A stretch of DNA of 39,871 nucleotides from Candidatus Nomurabacteria bacterium GW2011_GWE1_32_28 (GTDB taxonomy: Bacteria; Patescibacteriota; Minisyncoccia; Phycocordibacterales; UBA9973): assembly GCA_000989515.1 (NCBI GenBank), contig LBOM01000001.1:125260-165130 (forward strand), written 5' to 3'. This document shows, in pieces, positions 25,722 through 33,180 of this stretch. A program made the translations under genes and the position numbers. Position 1 is the stretch's first letter; every line of letters begins with the position of its first letter. The notes beneath the pieces were generated by a model. The model searched no databases and was not told where the DNA came from. It was given only the letters and a program-made list of their open reading frames with translations.

Positions 25722-25795
25722 TGGGGGATCGTCTAATGGTAGGACAACGGATTTTGAATCCGTTTATTTAGGTTCGAATCCTAGTCCCCCAGCCA
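25722..25795 (+). tRNA. trnQ: tRNA-Gln (anticodon TTG), integration target
   Basis: Acceptor TGGGGGA pairs with TCCCCCA; anticodon stem ACGGA/TCCGT encloses TTTTGAA, giving TTG; T-arm is TTAGGTTCGAATCCTAG; discriminator G and an encoded CCA follow. Its last 15 nt overlap the 3' end of the serine recombinase gene on the other strand. The final 13 nt are repeated at 32,139, marking it as an attachment site. Unlike the other two tRNAs here, CCA is encoded, consistent with regeneration of the 3' end by an incoming element. Confidence 0.97.
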
Positions 25796-27232
25796 AGTTT
25801 CAGAATTCGTTTTTTCGCCAAAATGCGGAGCGTCGCAAAGCGACGCGACGGGGGTTTCCGAGAGAATAGCCCAAGGGTTTTTGAAATCAATCTTTTTAAG
25901 AAAATCTCTTTTGGCTTCGAGATTTTCTTCGGAAGCGATAATTATGGCTTGGTTACTGTCTAAAATGAATTGACGAGAAAGTTCGAGCCAACGATTGCCT
26001 TTTCGTTCAAAATCCTTCAATTTTTCTGAAAAATCAATCTTTTGGTTGAGGAGCTTTTGCTTTTTGCCGATGTACTCCTCGCTCGTAATAGTGCTATCCA
26101 AATGAGCGTCAAGAAGCCTGTCTAGCGTCTCCTCAACACTTTTGATTTGATTTTTCAGATTTTGAACGAAAAGGGCGTCAGAGTGGAAACTGCTCGCTTG
26201 CTCTTTGTCCAGTTCAGCGAGCATGAATTCTTTCCACTCGGACGACAAAGAAACTTTTTTGATAATGTCATTCGCTTGTTCGGCGAGGAATTCTTCGCGA
26301 ATATATTTTTGTGTGCAGACACCTTTCTTTTTGGTGCAACGATAATAGGTATGACCTTTTTGCACTTCGCTTGTAATACCACAGCCACATTCTTCGCACA
26401 AAAATATTCCGCGAAAAATATGCTTGTTAATTCCTCGCTTCATCGGGTGAGCATTCCTCGCCGATACTTCCGCGCATTTATCAAAAAGTTTCTTTGAAAT
26501 CGCTGGCTCGTGCTTTCCTTGGTAAAGTTCTTTGTTAAATAAAAACATTCCATAGTAGAAAGGATTTTTCAAAATCATCTGCGTGTTTGAAACAGTGAGA
26601 ACTTTACCATTTTTAGACACCAAGCCCTTTTGGGCGAGCAAATTCCTTGTATCTTTCAGAGAATAATTTCCAGTAGCGTAGACTTCGAACATTTTCCTGA
26701 CGAGGCGAAACCTTTCAACATCGGGAATAATTTTCTTGTTCAACTTATCATTCAAATATCCAGTTGGAGCTTGACCGCTTTGTTCGCCTCGTCTTACTTT
26801 CTGTCGAAGTCCACGCTTCACATTCTCTGAAAGATTATCTACATAGTATTTGCTCTGCCCAAAAGCAATATTTAACATAAACTTACCTTGTGGCGTAGCG
26901 TCGAACCAAAACGTCGGGAATTTTAGCTCCTTAATTTTGCCAAGGTCACACAGATAGATTATCTTTCCGCCGTCAATGCTGTTTCTCGCCAATCTATCGG
27001 GGTGCCAAGCTAAAATACCCGACGCTTTGCCTTTTTCTATGAGCGAGAGCATATTGTTGAAAATAGGTCTGCCCGGCTCTTTAGCAGTCTGTGATTCAAT
27101 AAAGGTTTCAACAATCTCTAACTGCTCTCGCGTGGCAAATTCTTTCAACTCGTCAATTTGCGACTCAATACTCAAAATCTGACGATCTGGCTCGTCGGTA
27201 GATTTTCTCGCATATAGAAAGAATTTGTTCAT
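25781..27232 (-). CDS. Large serine recombinase / integrase
   Basis: Catalyses site-specific DNA integration, excision or inversion. The 483-residue product has the N-terminal resolvase domain with the catalytic serine in FLYARKSTDEPDRQ, arginines in WHPDRLARN and the long E helix. A recombinase domain follows (APTGYLNDKL, PFYYGMFLFN), then a zinc ribbon (FLCEECGCGITSEV, YYRCTKKKGVC) and a coiled coil. Its stop codon TAG and last codons (TWLGD) are formed by the complement of the tRNA-Gln 3' end, so its C-terminus would differ in an excised circle. Its GC content appears higher than the flanks. Inverted repeats bracket the gene. Confidence 0.94.
   Translation of the reverse strand: MNKFFLYARKSTDEPDRQILSIESQIDELKEFATREQLEIVETFIESQTAKEPGRPIFNNMLSLIEKGKASGILAWHPDRLARNSIDGGKIIYLCDLGKIKELKFPTFWFDATPQGKFMLNIAFGQSKYYVDNLSENVKRGLRQKVRRGEQSGQAPTGYLNDKLNKKIIPDVERFRLVRKMFEVYATGNYSLKDTRNLLAQKGLVSKNGKVLTVSNTQMILKNPFYYGMFLFNKELYQGKHEPAISKKLFDKCAEVSARNAHPMKRGINKHIFRGIFLCEECGCGITSEVQKGHTYYRCTKKKGVCTQKYIREEFLAEQANDIIKKVSLSSEWKEFMLAELDKEQASSFHSDALFVQNLKNQIKSVEETLDRLLDAHLDSTITSEEYIGKKQKLLNQKIDFSEKLKDFERKGNRWLELSRQFILDSNQAIIIASEENLEAKRDFLKKIDFKNPWAILSETPVASLCDAPHFGEKTNSETWLGD
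25783..25795 (+). repeat. attL-like direct repeat (left)
   Basis: AGTCCCCCAGCCA, the 3' end of tRNA-Gln including CCA; identical to 32139-32151. Confidence 0.7.
25790..25888 (+). repeat. Left arm of inverted repeat flanking the recombinase
   Basis: Complementary to 27351-27435. Begins with CAGCCAAGTTTCAGAATTC, has a 15-nt insertion (25808-25822) absent from the right arm, then a 66-nt perfect match through the recombinase C-terminal codons. It contains the GCGTCGCAAAGCGACGC hairpin. Confidence 0.9.
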
Positions 27233-27350: not shown

Positions 27351-27435
27351 GATTTCAAAAACCCTTGGGCTATTCTCTCGGAAACCCCCGTCGCGTCGCT
27401 TTGCGACGCTCCGCATGAATTCTGAAACTTGGCTG
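27351..27435 (-). repeat. Right arm of inverted repeat flanking the recombinase
   Basis: Reverse complement of 25790-25888 apart from the 15-nt gap; ends at CTTGGCTG, which is also the outer edge of the 197-bp terminal repeat. The 27,233-27,687 gap contains only this arm, the next repeat and the XRE promoter; the overlapping ORFs there are by-products of the GC-rich repeats. Confidence 0.9.
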
Positions 27436-27626
27436 TGTCTCCTGAACAAAATCCGAACTTTTTACCAAAACAATCCGAGCGACGACTAATCTGCGCGCCT
27501 CGTCCGCTCCCTTCGGTTGCCGGAGCAAAAACCAAAAATTTTCCTTACCTTTCTTATTTTCCTCGGCGGGGGGTGTGGGGGGAGCCGACAAAAAATGGAA
27601 AGGAAATTTTTGGTTTTGCTTCGCCG
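27430..27626 (+). repeat. Left 197-bp terminal inverted repeat
   Basis: GC-rich; contains GGCGGGGGGTGTGGGGGGAG and CTCCCTTCGG motifs. Nearly identical to the complement of 29662-29858; visible differences are single bases near GTTGCCGG and in the TTTCTTATTTTCC stretch. Confidence 0.9.
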
Positions 27627-27631
27627 TTTCC

Positions 27632-27681
27632 ATATTGGATTATACTCCAATATTGTTATCAAGTGCAAGATTGGTTATGCT
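27632..27681 (+). promoter_or_regulatory. Operator-like inverted repeat and promoter of the XRE gene
   Basis: ATATTGGA (27632-27639) and TCCAATAT (27646-27653) flank TTATAC. A promoter TTGTTA (27653-27658), 17 nt, TATGCT (27676-27681) overlaps the right arm, and the -10 ends 6 nt before ATG 27688. A dimeric XRE regulator bound at the repeat would cover the -35; autoregulation is inferred. Confidence 0.5.
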
Positions 27682-27687
27682 GTGGAT

Positions 27688-27897
27688 ATGAAAAAGGGTA
27701 TTTCAAGAAAGCTTGGAGAGAATATCAAGCGTATACGAATGGAAAAAGGAATGACGCAAGGAGATATTTTTCGTGCTCTTAAACTAGACCGCGGATATGT
27801 GAGTAGTTTGGAAAGCGGAAAAAGAAATCCGACATTAGCGATGATTGAAAAAATCGCGGGCGCGCTTGGAGTAGCAAGCGACGAGCTTTTGAAATAA
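27688..27897 (+). CDS. XRE-family HTH transcriptional regulator
   Basis: The 69-residue product is a single lambda-repressor-like HTH: ENIKRIRMEKGMTQGDIFRA, LDRGYVSSLESGKRNPTLAM, then EKIAGALGVASDELL. Start at ATG 27688; the longer ORF in the track (from 27517) runs through the terminal repeat and is not credible. Small XRE proteins commonly control mobile-element genes. It is first inside the left terminal repeat and 4 nt upstream of the next gene, so the two are probably co-transcribed. Confidence 0.85.
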   Translation: MKKGISRKLGENIKRIRMEKGMTQGDIFRALKLDRGYVSSLESGKRNPTLAMIEKIAGALGVASDELLK

Positions 27898-27901
27898 TGA
27901 T

Positions 27902-28558
27902 ATGGAAATTTTAGAAAAAATCTTAAATTGGTTATCAGAAAACTACGGCTTGTTTATAAGTCTTTTGGTACAAAGTTTTATCGCCTATCACATCTTTTTT
28001 CTTTCCAAACGGTTATCGGATAAAGCAAAACTTGAACACAAAGAAAGAATAAAGAAAAAAGCGGAAGAATTAAAACTAGGTAGAGAAGTTTATCTTGTAA
28101 ATGTTAAGAGATATTTTAAAGATTACCCGTCGAACAAAGAAAAAATGTTTAGTGGGTATTCTCACATAAAAGCAGAGATTAAAACTACGAGATTTGATGG
28201 GGTTGAGTTTATTTGTGGTATCAAAGAAATTTACAGAAAACCAGATGGCTGTTTAACGCTGAATACCGAAAGTAAAAAAACGGCACAAGAAAAAATTAAA
28301 GTTTTTGAGGTCGGCGTAATTCCTTACGAATGGATAGAGTATATTGATTTGCGGGGAGACGAGCACGGCTTCGTGCCGTTGTTCTTCGGCTACTTCAAAG
28401 GTAGAAGATATTGGCAAAAATCTTGGAAACGTTTTTTACCATTCGGTTATCCTTATAAAGAAATTATTTACTACAAAGAAAGTGGGGTTTACCATGAGGG
28501 AAGCGACCCAGTTGATATGAAATTTAGTTTTATAGATGAGCCAATTTCCAATGAATAA
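27902..28558 (+). CDS. Hypothetical membrane-anchored protein
   Basis: No family recognised. The 218-residue product has one N-terminal hydrophobic segment (NYGLFISLLVQSFIAYHIFF), a basic helix (KAKLEHKERIKKKAEELKLG) and a soluble domain rich in aromatic and charged residues (FKGRRYWQKSWKRFLPFGYP). The soluble part is probably cytoplasmic given the positive charges after the helix. It follows the XRE gene by 4 nt inside the repeat-bounded unit, so it is cargo or an effector controlled by that regulator; a toxin role is possible but nothing in the sequence demonstrates it. Confidence 0.6.
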   Translation: MEILEKILNWLSENYGLFISLLVQSFIAYHIFFLSKRLSDKAKLEHKERIKKKAEELKLGREVYLVNVKRYFKDYPSNKEKMFSGYSHIKAEIKTTRFDGVEFICGIKEIYRKPDGCLTLNTESKKTAQEKIKVFEVGVIPYEWIEYIDLRGDEHGFVPLFFGYFKGRRYWQKSWKRFLPFGYPYKEIIYYKESGVYHEGSDPVDMKFSFIDEPISNE

Positions 28559-28586
28559 CCCCATAAAATAGGCCGTCTTTTTGTCC

Positions 28587-28615
28587 TTGACAGAAAGGTT
28601 TTGGTATGCTAGGAT
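28587..28615 (+). promoter_or_regulatory. Consensus sigma-70 promoter of the PHA-type gene
   Basis: TTGACA (28587-28592), 17-nt spacer, extended TGC-TAGGAT (-10 at 28610-28615). The leader of about 65 nt has a small TTGAGC/GCTCAA hairpin (28629-28647) and an AAGGAG Shine-Dalgarno (28671-28676). This leadered, consensus -35 type differs from the leaderless genes of the window. Confidence 0.7.
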
Positions 28616-28684
28616 AGAGCAGGATTCATTGAGCTATTTTGGCTCAAAACCAGTACACCAACAACCAAAAAAGGAGACAGAAAA

Positions 28685-28988
28685 ATGGCAAAGCTCAACA
28701 TGGCGGTCTCGCATCGCCTCTCACAGGACGAAGCACTCAAACGCGTCAAGACGCTCCTCGGCGAGGTGAAAACCCAGTTCGCCGACCAAGATCAGCGATC
28801 TGCGCGAGGAGTGGAACGGCAACACCGGCAAGTTCAGTTTCTCGGCGATGGGATTCTCCGTCAGCGGAACGCTGATCGTGAATCCGTCGGGAGTGGAACT
28901 TTCTGGCAATCTCCCTTTCGCGGCGTCGTTCTTCAAGGGGAAGATCGAATCCACGCTGAGGGAGCGAGCAGAAACGCTTCTCGCCTGA
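28685..28988 (+). pseudogene. Frameshifted polyhydroxyalkanoic acid system (PHA granule-type) protein
   Basis: Frame 1 encodes MAKLNMAVSHRLSQDEALKR and continues to FAD; after an extra C at 28786/28787 the match continues in another frame as KISDLREEWNGNTGKFSFSA, MGFSVSGTLIVNPSG, LPFAASFFKGKIESTL and ends ETLLA-TGA. The combined about 100-residue product resembles the small PHA-system family (PHA_gran_rgn). One inserted base breaks it, so it is a recent pseudogene, a sequencing error or a programmed shift. The region is clearly GC-rich, unlike its AT-rich surroundings, and has its own promoter, Shine-Dalgarno and UUCG terminator, indicating transfer. The 120-residue ORF in the track is the unshifted frame. 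Confidence 0.7.
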
Positions 28989-29007
28989 CGAGTCGTCCGG
29001 CAATCAC

Positions 29008-29038
29008 AAGGGGTCCAACGTTCGCGTTGGCCCCTTTT
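29008..29038 (+). terminator. UUCG-loop terminator
   Basis: AAGGGG-T-CCAACG and CGTTGG-CCCCTT pair around a TTCG loop (one bulged T), followed by TT. It is 19 nt after the PHA-type stop codon. Confidence 0.85.
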
Positions 29039-29061
29039 CATTTGTAATAGCAATAAAATTG

Positions 29062-29070
29062 TGATAATAT
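29062..29070 (+). promoter_or_regulatory. Extended -10 promoter of the DUF5654 gene
   Basis: TGATAATAT ends 7 nt before ATG 29078, again the leaderless geometry. Confidence 0.45.
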
Positions 29071-29077
29071 TTTACAT

Positions 29078-29374
29078 ATGGAATCTCCTAAGGAAAAATT
29101 TGAAATTTCGGAAATGGAAAAGTTTTTGGAAAAGCATGAACTCCGTCATATCCACTCTGATGTTTTTGAAAGAATCATAACTCTGGTAATTGCCGCTTTG
29201 GGTCTAATCGCCGCTCTTGCGTGGGATGAAGCACTAAGGCATATTTTTGAAAATTTGTTTGGTGGCAAAGGAACTTTGCTTGAAGAAATTTCATATGCGG
29301 TAGTGATAACAACTCTTGCGGCGTTTATTTCAGTACGTTTAGGAAAACTTTTTTCAAAACGTAAAGAAAAATAA
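29078..29374 (+). CDS. DUF5654-like two-helix membrane protein
   Basis: The 98-residue product has a charged N-terminus, a first membrane helix with the characteristic ITLVIAALGLIAALAWDEAL, a polar loop (FENLFGGKGTLLEE) and a second helix (ISYAVVITTLAAFISVRLG), ending in a basic tail. The AALAWDEA phrase and YAVVITTLAA match the DUF5654 pattern found in archaea and Patescibacteria; the function is unknown to me. It is the last gene inside the terminal repeats. Confidence 0.75.
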   Translation: MESPKEKFEISEMEKFLEKHELRHIHSDVFERIITLVIAALGLIAALAWDEALRHIFENLFGGKGTLLEEISYAVVITTLAAFISVRLGKLFSKRKEK

Positions 29375-29401
29375 GTAATCTATTTTCAGTAAGGGAGCAA
29401 C

Positions 29402-29438
29402 CCCCGCCGTTTTATAATTTCTCCTAAAAACGGCGGGG
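29402..29438 (+). terminator. Strong GC terminator-like hairpin
   Basis: CCCCGCCGTTTT (29402-29413) and AAAACGGCGGGG (29427-29438), a perfect 12-bp stem with a 13-nt loop, 28 nt after the DUF5654 stop. Confidence 0.75.
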
Positions 29439-29661
29439 ATTTGTGCGCGCACAGGGCGGGCGGGGCAAGCACAATAAGATTTGTTTGTGCTTTGCACAAT
29501 CCACTTTAAGAGTTATCGCCGAACTCGGTCGGAGGCACATAGTTTAGAGCTACCACCAAACGCCGAGAGGAAGCGCCTCGTCTCGCCGCAAGGACGGAGA
29601 AATGAACAACGCTAAAGAATCACAAATGATATAATGGAAATGTTCATTTTGTAGTCTGTAG
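29439..29661. other. GC-rich non-coding stretch before the right terminal repeat
   Basis: No convincing ORF. It holds a GCAAGCACAA/TTGTGCTTTGC hairpin (about 29464-29500), GC-rich segments with short complementary pieces (CCGAACTCGG, CGAGAGG with CGCCTCG) and a TGATATAAT box at about 29627-29635 pointing right into the repeat. It could encode a structured RNA or be element backbone. Confidence 0.4.
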
Positions 29662-29858
29662 CGGCGAAGCAAAACCAAAAATTTCCTTTCCATTTTTTGT
29701 CGGCTCCCCCCACACCCCCCGCCGAAGAAAAGAAGAAAGGTAAGGAAAATTTTTGGTTTTTGCTCCGGCGACCGAAGGGAGCGGACGAGGCGCGCAGATT
29801 AGTCGTCGCTCGGATTGTTTTGGTAAAAAGTTCGGATTTTGTTCAGGAGACACAGCCA
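29662..29858 (-). repeat. Right 197-bp terminal inverted repeat
   Basis: Reverse complement of 27430-27626 with a few mismatches. Its outer end CACAGCCA joins directly to the 51-bp direct repeat at 29853. The ORFs called here are mirror images of those in the left repeat and are not genes. Confidence 0.9.
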
Positions 29859-29903
29859 GTTTGAGCTAGGTTCGCGCGCTCGAGTTCCTTCTCATCTGCA
29901 AGT
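29853..29903 (+). repeat. 51-bp direct repeat, left copy
   Basis: CAGCCAGTTTGAGCTAGGTT... through CTCATCTGCAAGT; matches 32146-32196 at 48 of 51 positions. The following sequence also shares an ACTTGTTTA promoter-like piece, so the repeat may carry the promoter of the first gene of each unit. Confidence 0.9.
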
Positions 29904-29934
29904 TTTAAACTTGTTTAATAATATTTTTAAAAAC

Positions 29935-30222
29935 ATGGGAAATTTTGAATTAGAGGGGTGGGAAGATATAAATCAAAATGGTGGTACTGTTGGTACAGGC
30001 ATAAATCGTGCAATTCATAAACTAACAGTCGCTATATTTAATTCAGGCTCAAAAACATCGACAGCCTTGGGTTACGCAAAAGACGCCATTGAAAAAGCAT
30101 CAAGTTCTTCAGACAAACACACGGATGCGCTTGTTCGTGTTACTTGGATTTTGGCTATTGCTACAGGCGTACTTGCATTGGCCACAATAGCACTTGTCAT
30201 TATAACTTTTGTAAAAGGTTAA
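29935..30222 (+). CDS. Small membrane protein preceding the ATPase gene
   Basis: No family recognised. From ATG 29935 the product is 95 residues: a polar N-terminus, a Ser/Thr/Ala-rich helical middle (NSGSKTSTALGYAKDAIEKA) and one C-terminal membrane segment (ILAIATGVLALATIALVIIT), a tail-anchored layout. The track start at 29839 runs through the direct repeat and is rejected. It ends 28 nt before the ATPase gene with no separate promoter needed, so the two form a pair; a membrane partner or effector of the ATPase is a reasonable inference. Confidence 0.65.
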   Translation: MGNFELEGWEDINQNGGTVGTGINRAIHKLTVAIFNSGSKTSTALGYAKDAIEKASSSSDKHTDALVRVTWILAIATGVLALATIALVIITFVKG

Positions 30223-30250
30223 TTGAGTTTTTCAGTGCTCGAGATATGCT

Positions 30251-31864
30251 ATGAAAATTAAAAAAATACAACTAAAAAATGAATATAAAAGGTTTTTTGA
30301 CCTTACTATTGATTTAGGTCCTGAACCCAAAAAAATCATTGCATTAGTTGGACCAAATGGGTGTGGTAAGAGTAGTGTATTTGATGGACTACTTTATATA
30401 ACAAATGCTCATGGAAGAATTGGTAATAAAAATCAAAAAGATTTCACTTATCACTCAATGACTCAAGTGCCCAATTATAATTGGCAAAATATTTCAATTG
30501 AATTTACTACTGGAGACTTCCAAGCTGTAAGAGCTAGTAAGGTAAAATTAGGGAAAGAGCAAACTATCTTCTCATTCAGAAGTCCTTACCGTTACAACAG
30601 TAACTTAAAAGTATTACAATCGGAAGCTACATCAGAAATTAGATTAAATAATTACGGAGCAACTACAACATCTGATTTAGATGATAAGATGATTGAAAAT
30701 TATAGAAGATTGTATGTAAAATATAATAACTATCTTAATAAAGAAGACTGCAAGCCCAGTGTTGCTAAAGCTAAAATTATCGGTGACATAAATAATTCAC
30801 TATTAAATTGCTTGGATTTAGAGATTACAAGTATTGGCGACATAGAAGCAAGTAAGGGTACTCTGTATTTTAAAAAAAATGATCATCCAAATGTATTCGA
30901 GTTTAATGTTCTTTCCTCTGGCGAAAAAGAAGTTGTTGATATTTTATTAGATTTATACCTAAGACAAGATGAATATAATGATACAGTTTTTATTATTGAC
31001 GAACCAGAGTTACATATAAATACATCAATACAAAAGAAACTACTATTAGAAATAGATAAATTAATTGGCAAGGATTGCCAAATATGGATTGCGACACATA
31101 GTATTGGATTTTTGCGAGCTTTACAAGAAGACTTAAAAAATGAGTGTCAGATAATTCAATTTGAAAAAGGAATAAATTGGGCTTCAACTCCGCAAACTCT
31201 TACTCCTATGAAAAAATCACTTTCAAAATGGAAAGAAGTTTTTGAAACAGCATTAGATGATTTAAATGGCTTAATTAGTCCTAAAAGAATTATTTATTGT
31301 GAAGGTAAAGATATTTTAGGGAGTGATAAAAAAGAAGAAGGGTTAGATGCTCAGGTTTATAATAATATTTTTGAAGACCAGCACTTTGATACTCTATTTG
31401 TTTCAGCCGGTGGATGTAATGAGTTAGGTTCTATTAGCATAAAGCCTCTTAAATTACTTCTTTTAAAGAAGATATTTGATGACGTTGAAGTTCTCTTGTT
31501 AACAGATGGTGATTGTGAAAACACAGGCAACAATGCTTCTCAGGAAAATAAGCTTTTACTTAAAACAAAAACACCAATTTTAAAAATTTTAGACAGATTA
31601 GAAATTAAAAACTATCTATATGATAAAGAAGTTTTAAAAAAGTATTGTTCAATAAATAAACTTAATTTTAACGAGGAAGAATATGATAAACTTGTGACTG
31701 ATATAAACAATCAAAACTTAAAGGATAAGACAGTAGAAATAAAAGTAATTTGTAGTGTTATTACTAGTGTAAGTAAAGAAGATTTTAAACTAAACATAGC
31801 AAAAATTATTTCAAAAGATATGCCTGTTTATACTGAGCTAGAATCCTCTATTTTTACTAATTAA
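30251..31864 (+). CDS. OLD/PARIS-like ABC-type ATPase with C-terminal TOPRIM-like nuclease domain
   Basis: The 537-residue product begins with an SMC/RecF-like ATPase: Walker A GPNGCGKSSVFDG, a middle helical region, signature LSSGEKEVVDILLDLYL, Walker B FIIDEPELHIN and switch ATHSIGF. From about residue 345 a TOPRIM-like domain follows: RIIYCEGKD, FVSAGGCNEL and VLLLTDGDCEN supply the acidic motifs. This architecture is known in OLD-family nucleases and in the PARIS defence proteins (AriA ATPase plus AriB DUF4435). Anti-phage or plasmid defence is therefore the leading hypothesis; the exact subfamily needs a profile search. It is paired with the 95-residue membrane gene and flanked by 51-bp direct repeats. 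Confidence 0.82.
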   Translation: MKIKKIQLKNEYKRFFDLTIDLGPEPKKIIALVGPNGCGKSSVFDGLLYITNAHGRIGNKNQKDFTYHSMTQVPNYNWQNISIEFTTGDFQAVRASKVKLGKEQTIFSFRSPYRYNSNLKVLQSEATSEIRLNNYGATTTSDLDDKMIENYRRLYVKYNNYLNKEDCKPSVAKAKIIGDINNSLLNCLDLEITSIGDIEASKGTLYFKKNDHPNVFEFNVLSSGEKEVVDILLDLYLRQDEYNDTVFIIDEPELHINTSIQKKLLLEIDKLIGKDCQIWIATHSIGFLRALQEDLKNECQIIQFEKGINWASTPQTLTPMKKSLSKWKEVFETALDDLNGLISPKRIIYCEGKDILGSDKKEEGLDAQVYNNIFEDQHFDTLFVSAGGCNELGSISIKPLKLLLLKKIFDDVEVLLLTDGDCENTGNNASQENKLLLKTKTPILKILDRLEIKNYLYDKEVLKKYCSINKLNFNEEEYDKLVTDINNQNLKDKTVEIKVICSVITSVSKEDFKLNIAKIISKDMPVYTELESSIFTN

Positions 31865-31870
31865 ATTAAT

Positions 31871-31963
31871 CGCTCTAGACGCGTCGTTTTATTATAATAA
31901 AAGATTAAAAATAACATTGTAGAGTAAGGAACTAATTGGTCCCAGCCCGAGCGTCTCAGCAAA
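31871..31963 (+). repeat. Unit-tail repeat, copy 1
   Basis: CGCTCTAGACGCGTCGTTTTATTATAATAAAAGATTAAAAATAACATTG... ending TCTCAGCAAA; aligns along its length with 33088-33180. It contains a TATAAT box. It starts 7 nt after the ATPase stop. On the minus strand the frame of the 31,861-32,139 ORF runs through it. Confidence 0.75.
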
Positions 31964-32107: not shown

Positions 32108-32138
32108 AGTCGAGGGAGAAAAATGTACTCATGTTCCA

Positions 32139-32151
32139 AGTCCCCCAGCCA
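32139..32151 (+). repeat. attR-like direct repeat (right)
   Basis: AGTCCCCCAGCCA, identical to the tRNA-Gln 3' end at 25783-25795, immediately followed by GTTTGAGCGAGG. Confidence 0.7.
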
Positions 32152-32196
32152 GTTTGAGCGAGGTTCGCGTACTCGAGTTCCTTCTCATCTGCAAGT
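32146..32196 (+). repeat. 51-bp direct repeat, right copy
   Basis: 48 of 51 positions identical to 29853-29903; overlaps the end of attR. Confidence 0.9.
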
Positions 32197-32233
32197 CATA
32201 TTTAACTTGTTTATAGGTAATTTATTTACAATT

Positions 32234-33076
32234 ATGGAAACAATAACAGCCTCCAATTCCCTTGTGGATTTAATGAACCTAACTCACGATGCTATATCAC
32301 TTAATGCAGTATATTTAGGTATTTCAGTAAGTGCCATTTTGGTTCTGGCAGGAATTCTTTTAGGTGTATTTTATTTTTTTAATCTAAAACCACTACAAGA
32401 AAAAATAACAAAACAAGATGATAAAATGGAATCTCAAGAAAAAGAGACTACTAGAGTTTTAAAAGATACAGAAGAAAAAAATGGAAAGTCGTTGAAAGAT
32501 TTCGAACAAAAATACGAAAAACATTTAAATGAAATTTTAGTCAAAAATAATGAAAAAATTATTTTAGAAAATAAAAACATATTTGCTGCTACAGAGAAAA
32601 GTATCTTAGAAAAGATAGAAAATGTATCTGAGGGTAAAGATATAAAATTAAAAGAAATTATTTTTTCTGAAGTTATAAATAAAATTGCTATTTTAGAAAA
32701 AATATTAACTTTTAATATTGTTAATGCAAAAAATGATTCAAATAAAAATTTAGTAGAATTAAATAAAACAATAGCTGAACTAAAATCAAATATTAAGGAA
32801 ATTAAAAGAGAGATTAAGATATTGAATATTTATAAATATAGCAAAGAGGGTCAAATGGGAGCAATTATTGATTCAATGGATGTTCTTCGAGAAGATATAA
32901 AAGAAAAAAGATGGAGTATATTAACTAGCCTAGAGAGATTAAGTAAAGAAATGGATGGTATAATATTAGAATCTACTTATGTTTCTGAAATCGAAGAACA
33001 GCTCGCCATCCTAGACAAAGAACCTAAATATTCAGTTTTGGTGACTGAAATAAGATCAAAATATTTGAAAAAATAA
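32234..33076 (+). CDS. Membrane-anchored coiled-coil protein
   Basis: From ATG 32234 the product is 280 residues: a short extracytoplasmic-type N-terminus, one membrane segment (YLGISVSAILVLAGILLGVFYFF) and a long Lys/Glu-rich coiled coil to the C-terminus (for example QEKITKQDDKMESQEKETT, NIKEIKREIKILNIYKY). The layout resembles RmuC- or LapA-like anchors without a catalytic domain; no family is recognised. The track start at 32039 runs through attR and the direct repeat and is rejected. It is the sole gene of its unit, between the 51-bp repeat and the second tail repeat. Confidence 0.7.
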   Translation: METITASNSLVDLMNLTHDAISLNAVYLGISVSAILVLAGILLGVFYFFNLKPLQEKITKQDDKMESQEKETTRVLKDTEEKNGKSLKDFEQKYEKHLNEILVKNNEKIILENKNIFAATEKSILEKIENVSEGKDIKLKEIIFSEVINKIAILEKILTFNIVNAKNDSNKNLVELNKTIAELKSNIKEIKREIKILNIYKYSKEGQMGAIIDSMDVLREDIKEKRWSILTSLERLSKEMDGIILESTYVSEIEEQLAILDKEPKYSVLVTEIRSKYLKK

Positions 33077-33087
33077 ATATATTAATA

Positions 33088-33180
33088 CGCACGAGATACG
33101 TCGTTTTGGTATAATAAAAAGATTAGAAATAACATTGTGAGGTAAGGTATCAAAAATTCCGAATCCGAGGATGCCAGCAA
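33088..33180 (+). repeat. Unit-tail repeat, copy 2, ending in a tRNA-Gln-like scar
   Basis: CGCACGAGATACGTCGTTTTGGTATAATAAAAAGATTAG... aligned with 31871-31963. Its end, TTCCGAATCCGAGG-ATGCCAGCAA (33157-33180), resembles the tRNA-Gln 3' end TTCGAATCCTAGTCCCCCAGCCA. Confidence 0.7.

Follow-up and report, generated by a model that had tools for sequence, protein, structure and literature searches.

A gene for an ATPase with a nuclease-like domain, lying shortly behind a gene for a small membrane protein in a bacterial genome of 667 kb (6 contigs) that is probably of the Patescibacteria kind, to judge by its size and gene content, raises the question of whether both genes form one defence system, as the first-pass annotation had proposed, or whether the larger gene stands alone and the smaller one belongs to something else. 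The ORF calls place both reading frames in the window (the whole stretch of 39,871 nt that was analysed) exactly where that annotation had put them, with 28 nt in between; the features of the locus are collected in Table 1. The 95-aa protein shows a single strongly hydrophobic stretch (residues 72-90, Kyte-Doolittle 2.8), in agreement with the one C-terminal membrane helix described earlier. Likewise, the nucleotide-binding motifs are indeed fused to a TOPRIM segment in the 537-aa protein, with Walker A GPNGCGKS (34-41), the signature LSSGEK (221-226), Walker B IIDEPELH (248-255) and ATHS (281-284) in the ATPase part, and YCEG (349-352) and LTDGD (417-421), which supply the E...DxD residues, in the TOPRIM part.

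Table 1. Features of the locus, in window coordinates.
Feature	Position	Strand	Details or basis
tRNA-Gln(TTG), integration site at left of array	25722..25795	+	ARAGORN, Rfam
Large serine recombinase overlapping tRNA 3' end, candidate mover of array	25781..27232	-	Pfam Resolvase, Recombinase, Zn_ribbon_recom; PHROG integrase E 3e-74
Second unit between 197-nt inverted repeats	27430..29858	.	HTH protein, 218-aa protein without assignment, DUF5654 protein (Pfam)
Left end of unit A: CAGCCAGTTTGAGCTAGGTTCGCGCGCTCGAG	29853..29884	+	Identical (100%) in second unit of G382; 94% match with 32146-32196
Small membrane-protein gene, first in unit A	29935..30222	+	95 aa, single TM; 95% identity in G382 with other cargo behind
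Junction motif GCTCGAGATATGC between small gene and exchangeable slot	30237..30249	+	G382: same position (GCTCGAGATGCGTC), different following genes
ATPase-TOPRIM defence gene (fused AriAB/OLD-like), unit A cargo	30251..31864	+	537 aa; profile, homologue and structure-model matches
TOPRIM core	31295..31618	+	E351 (31301), D419/D421 (31505-31513), position 453 (31607-31609)
91-nt right end of unit A with outward TATAAT-like box	31872..31962	+	81% mean column identity, six copies, four genomes
Left end of unit B, behind tRNA-Gln 3' remnant GTTCCAAGTCCCCCAGCCA (32133-32151, 19 nt)	32146..32196	+	Repeat/sequence comparison
Unit B cargo: TM + coiled-coil protein, no assigned function	32234..33076	+	phrog_1009 E 1.3e-7
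Right end of unit B	33089..33179	+	Right-end comparison

HMM searches with the 537-aa protein returned AAA_21 from Pfam (E 2.8e-18) and, as the best of all PADLOC models, fused PARIS AriAB (PDLC02981, E 7e-26), a match that covers part of the model (positions 283-560 of 694); AriAB also led for the three homologues tested, and GajA scored far below it. The window TOPRIM alone matched no Pfam or PADLOC model and a PDB profile search with it found nothing, but the TOPRIM parts of homologues, taken alone, matched two defence families only, through the profiles of AriAB (1e-9) and AriB (1e-4). At the structural level, PDB profile search and Foldseek gave Gabija GajA, Septu PtuA and the retron Ec78/Ec83/Eco8 ATPases as top matches of the 537-aa protein; among these, GajA, PtuA and the retron Eco8 ATPase-TOPRIM were the PDB matches of its full AlphaFold2 model (pLDDT 78). 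A model of the TOPRIM alone (pLDDT 81) placed OLD C-terminal regions (6nk8, 6njw) first, with probabilities of 0.99-1.00 but E 2e-3 and TM 0.44-0.48, and the AriB structure 8v46 at rank 8 (E 0.08). Because of these profile matches to AriAB and AriB and structure matches to GajA, PtuA, Eco8 and OLD, the protein is assigned to the ATPase-TOPRIMs of the PARIS/OLD group, within which the AriB and OLD types are not firmly separable; the earlier OLD/PARIS-like identification is thus upheld, with AriAB leading in PADLOC, OLD closest to the TOPRIM, and E351, D419 and D421 aligned. A Pfam SMC_N match (40.5 bits) could recommend a housekeeping RecF/SMC-like protein instead, which we regard as extremely improbable given the TOPRIM domain, the location of the gene on mobile units and prophages, and its patchy distribution (universal presence was looked for, and 3 of the 80 genomes of the genus have it).

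PARIS is activated by phage proteins such as Ocr and cleaves tRNA; tRNA is the target of AriB, and DNA that of OLD and GajA. The window protein resembles the fused forms of PARIS, which have been described (PMC12409363), in joining an ABC ATPase and a TOPRIM in one chain, AriAB being the best profile for it and for its relatives, but differs from them in the partial profile match and in having K at one otherwise invariant acidic residue. Compared with the AriB-type TOPRIM, with its catalytic E and DxD, the window copy presents E351, D419 and D421 together with K at position 453, and its TOPRIM alone lacks the AriB match that homologues have. Class 1 OLD proteins (P2 Old, T. scotoductus OLD) are also single-gene, with an N-terminal ATPase and a C-terminal TOPRIM, and are found in prophages; besides, OLD C-terminal regions are the closest Foldseek structures to the window TOPRIM model, but these are class 2 OLD proteins (E 2e-3). 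The publication from which the class 1 definition is taken does not settle if fused AriAB is distinct from class 1 OLD (PMC10568477). GajA, PtuA and the retron Ec78/Ec83/Eco8 ATPases share the ATPase superfamily of the window protein, and the corresponding systems were rejected: no GajB UvrD-like helicase adjoins the gene (its neighbours encode the 95-aa TM protein and the coiled-coil TM protein), of the adjacent reverse transcriptase and ncRNA that a type I retron calls for, the ten neighbouring ORFs scanned include no reverse transcriptase family and Rfam matched tRNAs only, and unit A has no PtuB HNH gene of Septu.

Full-length relatives of the ATPase-TOPRIM occur in Bacteroidota (66-68% identity), in small genomes belonging to the genus or phylum of the window genome (59%, 43% and 41%), on IMG/VR contigs (28-60%, profile search) and on a Zymomonas plasmid (30%); the ATPase sequence alone found none in IMG/VR and GenBank phages, but the profile did. 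The homologue lies inside a type I R-M locus in G127 (order hsdR-ATPase-hsdM-hsdS), after hsdM-hsdS in Arenibacter, before a SIR2-like gene in G445, and beside a methyl-directed restriction enzyme (mREase) and a SLFN helicase in G451; other homologues are lone genes amid prophage genes (structural, integrase or repressor). These R-M, SIR2, mREase and prophage neighbours, together with the presence in so few genomes of the genus, lead us to regard the ATPase-TOPRIM as a mobile defence gene whose family lives in defence contexts. By what is known of these families, the ATPase part would sense infection and then release or activate the TOPRIM nuclease, which would cut nucleic acid (tRNA or DNA), so that phage growth stops. 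In G127, the homologue (L019, 5921-7471), between hsdR and hsdM, overlaps hsdR by 11 nt, which suggests co-regulation with restriction, as expectable for a PARIS-like guard of restriction systems.

The small gene recurs in the congener G382 (95% amino acid identity), in the same place after tRNA-Gln. Between both copies, 15 of 18 nucleotide changes fall at third codon positions (dN/dS ~0.1), and the gene is therefore a real one, under purifying selection and functional. A search of 60 genomes from the genus and 297 from the order gave it in these two only, besides two weak matches of 31% and 35% identity, and the 95-aa protein found nothing in IMG/VR. The order in G382 is a homologue of ORF 25010, tRNA-Gln, leader, 95-aa gene, GCTCGAGAT motif, a 189-aa ORF, an HNH nuclease and a trailer: the 189-aa ORF and the HNH gene occupy the slot of the ATPase, and the trailer is 82% identical. 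Conversely, ORFs up to 2.5 kb upstream of 16 ATPase homologues (28-68% identity; Bacteroidota, Patescibacteria-like genomes, prophages and one plasmid) include no relative of the 95-aa gene; the upstream genes differ from homologue to homologue, and two of the homologues (L024, L053) are preceded by unrelated small membrane-protein ORFs. The membrane gene is thus not conserved beside the ATPase elsewhere, and this lack of a fixed partner (16/16) is a further likeness to class 1 OLD. Since no homologue has it and G382 has it without the ATPase, the 95-aa gene, for the genomes examined and as far as sequence comparison goes, is a separate functional gene of the mobile unit and not part of the defence system; the partnership is judged from few cases, as two genomes only carry the small gene.

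A true two-component system, in which the nuclease that follows (TOPRIM in the window, HNH in G382) is anchored or regulated by the 95-aa protein, or triggers it, would account for the purifying selection on a gene placed 28 nt upstream of the ATPase, for a nuclease among the followers in both known cases, and for the TM proteins that also open unit B and the G436 unit. We consider it a distinctly unlikely alternative, even so: all 16 homologues lack the small gene, the junction GCTCGAGAT sets it apart from the cargo, and its direct follower in G382 is the 189-aa protein of no known kind and not the HNH nuclease. Most probably, the locus encodes a single-gene PARIS/OLD-type effector, carried as exchangeable cargo of a short mobile unit at tRNA-Gln, with the 95-aa gene not an obligate partner; a plausible two-gene defence system is in this way corrected to a single-gene one. 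The comparison of genomes shows that the ATPase-TOPRIM gene was acquired horizontally and lies in a short unit with conserved ends at a tRNA-Gln hot spot, which is a way of keeping a defence gene of the Bacteroidota/prophage kind in a 667-kb genome.

The acidic residues of the TOPRIM are indeed aligned: E351, D419 and D421 show no change across the alignment (13 of 13 homologues). Residue 453 of the window copy is K (codon AAA), at a position where all homologues have E (12 of the 13 aligned sequences, the three other small-genome copies and the Zymomonas copy); because of this change at a conserved residue, the nuclease of the window copy may be altered, impaired or dead, and, as R420 -> G joins E453 -> K at positions conserved or near-conserved elsewhere, the copy could be inactive. 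A sequencing error might also lie behind E453K. Compared with the Bacteroidota copies, the window protein reaches 74-81% identity in its ATPase part and 43-49% in its TOPRIM core, against 76-92% for the TOPRIM core of those copies among themselves; the drop starts directly past the catalytic E351, from ~80% to 13-60%. In trees, the end branch of the window copy is 0.14 for the ATPase and 0.80 for the TOPRIM, for which four Bacteroidota copies have end branches of 0.04-0.15. The sharp fall past residue 350 beside a well-kept ATPase, the long TOPRIM branch and E453K would all suit a copy in decay or put to another use, with a TOPRIM that has stopped cutting and cargo without present function, a reading which the intact reading frame and the retained E351, D419 and D421 make unlikely; moreover, the G451 copy, second in the genus, shows the same pattern of conserved ATPase and divergent TOPRIM with E453 kept, which would also suit a nuclease domain that was swapped or retargeted. 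The nuclease domain would have been either exchanged or fast-diverging after transfer; for an AriB-like enzyme, one may speculate that fast divergence would fit retargeting to the tRNAs of the new host. In this sense, the contrast between both domains makes nuclease retargeting on host change a testable question.

The conserved ends, a second unit of this kind, and the tRNA-Gln gene and serine recombinase upstream are additions to the first-pass annotation. The unit that carries the effector is one of two such units in the window (unit A, 29853-31962; unit B, 32146-33179), with a 51-nt version of the left end (to 29903) common to both and a left-end pattern CAGCCAGTTTGAGC[T/G]AGGTTCGCG..CTCGAG. 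Broadly, the units measure 0.8-2.1 kb, have ends of 32 nt (left) and ~92 nt (right), lack a recombinase, and carry different cargo each time: the ATPase-TOPRIM, a coiled-coil TM protein, an unknown protein plus HNH, an unknown 425-aa protein, an unknown 218-aa TM protein or a NucS-like nuclease. Their ends recur in three congeners: in G382 (two units), in G436, with the right end behind the cargo gene that comes after tRNA-Gln and a divergent left end, and in G453, with the right end behind the cargo and no left end found. The G453 cargo (L043, 8092-9249) is a NucS/DUF91-like PDDEXK nuclease of the PADLOC candidate family PDC-S02 (2e-44). In the first G382 unit and the G436 unit, the start immediately follows the 3' end of tRNA-Gln, and the second G382 unit is located away from any tRNA; since this unit is away from tRNAs and unit B keeps a tRNA-Gln remnant, the ends move with the unit and are not mere tRNA-Gln flanks. 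Weak left-end matches (G448, G452) and a weak right-end match (G447) did not prove to belong to any unit when the sequences were read and were discarded, and the left-end pattern found nothing in IMG/VR. A structured RNA in the right end was rejected, as no Rfam match was obtained and its fold was no better than shuffles (z-scores -1.2 and +1.1); a generic promoter scan gave sites no more numerous than in shuffles, so the TATAAT box is proposed from its conservation.

We tentatively suggest, with our doubts slightly outweighing our confidence, that both units belong to an undescribed family of recombinase-less cassettes (~0.8-2.1 kb) in small-genome Patescibacteria-like bacteria. Each would have a fixed left end of 32 nt, a right end of 92 nt in which a promoter-like box points outward, and one or two slots for exchangeable genes, bounded by GCTCGAGA motifs; most insertions would be at the 3' end of tRNA-Gln, the cargo would be of the nuclease or defence type, and a serine recombinase would move the cassettes in trans, so that hosts with tiny genomes could replace their defence genes singly. 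This family is the part worth pursuing: if it holds up, a scan for both ends offers a direct route to new defence genes of such bacteria. Among known elements, P2/P4 hot spots combine a fixed site, conserved ends and variable defence cargo (PMC9122126), and tRNA-integrated islands are catalogued by Islander (PMC4383910). The window units share with these the fixed site and the conserved ends around variable defence cargo, but are only 0.8-2.1 kb long, have no recombinase and possess their own 32-nt and 92-nt ends; also, the adjoining recombinase is of the serine type, tyrosine integrases being the usual enzymes at tRNA sites (PMC4383910). An integron cassette array, which calls for attC sites of conserved folded structure and an IntI integrase, was rejected: what the right ends conserve is their sequence, covariation is seen for 1 of 18 predicted pairs, and the recombinase is serine-type.

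The pair formed by upstream ORF 25010 and tRNA-Gln recurs in 12 further genomes of this genus. Eleven other tRNA-Gln loci, some of them cut by contig ends, carry no unit; at one of these (G449), a serine recombinase follows tRNA-Gln in the same convergent position as in the window. Relatives of the recombinase exist in 7 of 7 genomes checked, and its position makes it a candidate mover of the units, which it would act upon in trans. Its segment is bounded by inverted CAGCCAAGTTTCAGAATTC copies and a 66-nt exact inverted repeat (25790-25888 and 27351-27435), the latter lying partly inside the C-terminal codons of the recombinase; recombination at these repeats could invert the gene. Next to it, the inverted repeats at 27430-27626 and 29662-29858 (197 nt, 98% identical) contain a hairpin with arms of 28 nt and a spacer of 34 nt, and look like a MITE-like mobile hairpin; a copy of the repeat core with 80% identity is found close to another AAA gene in G212, a genome from a different family (L010, 2504-2602). 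GC content is 41-43% across 26-30 kb of the window, and the GC-rich segment 28685-29047, with overlapping ORFs, resembles a broken small gene in a neighbourhood of 30% GC.
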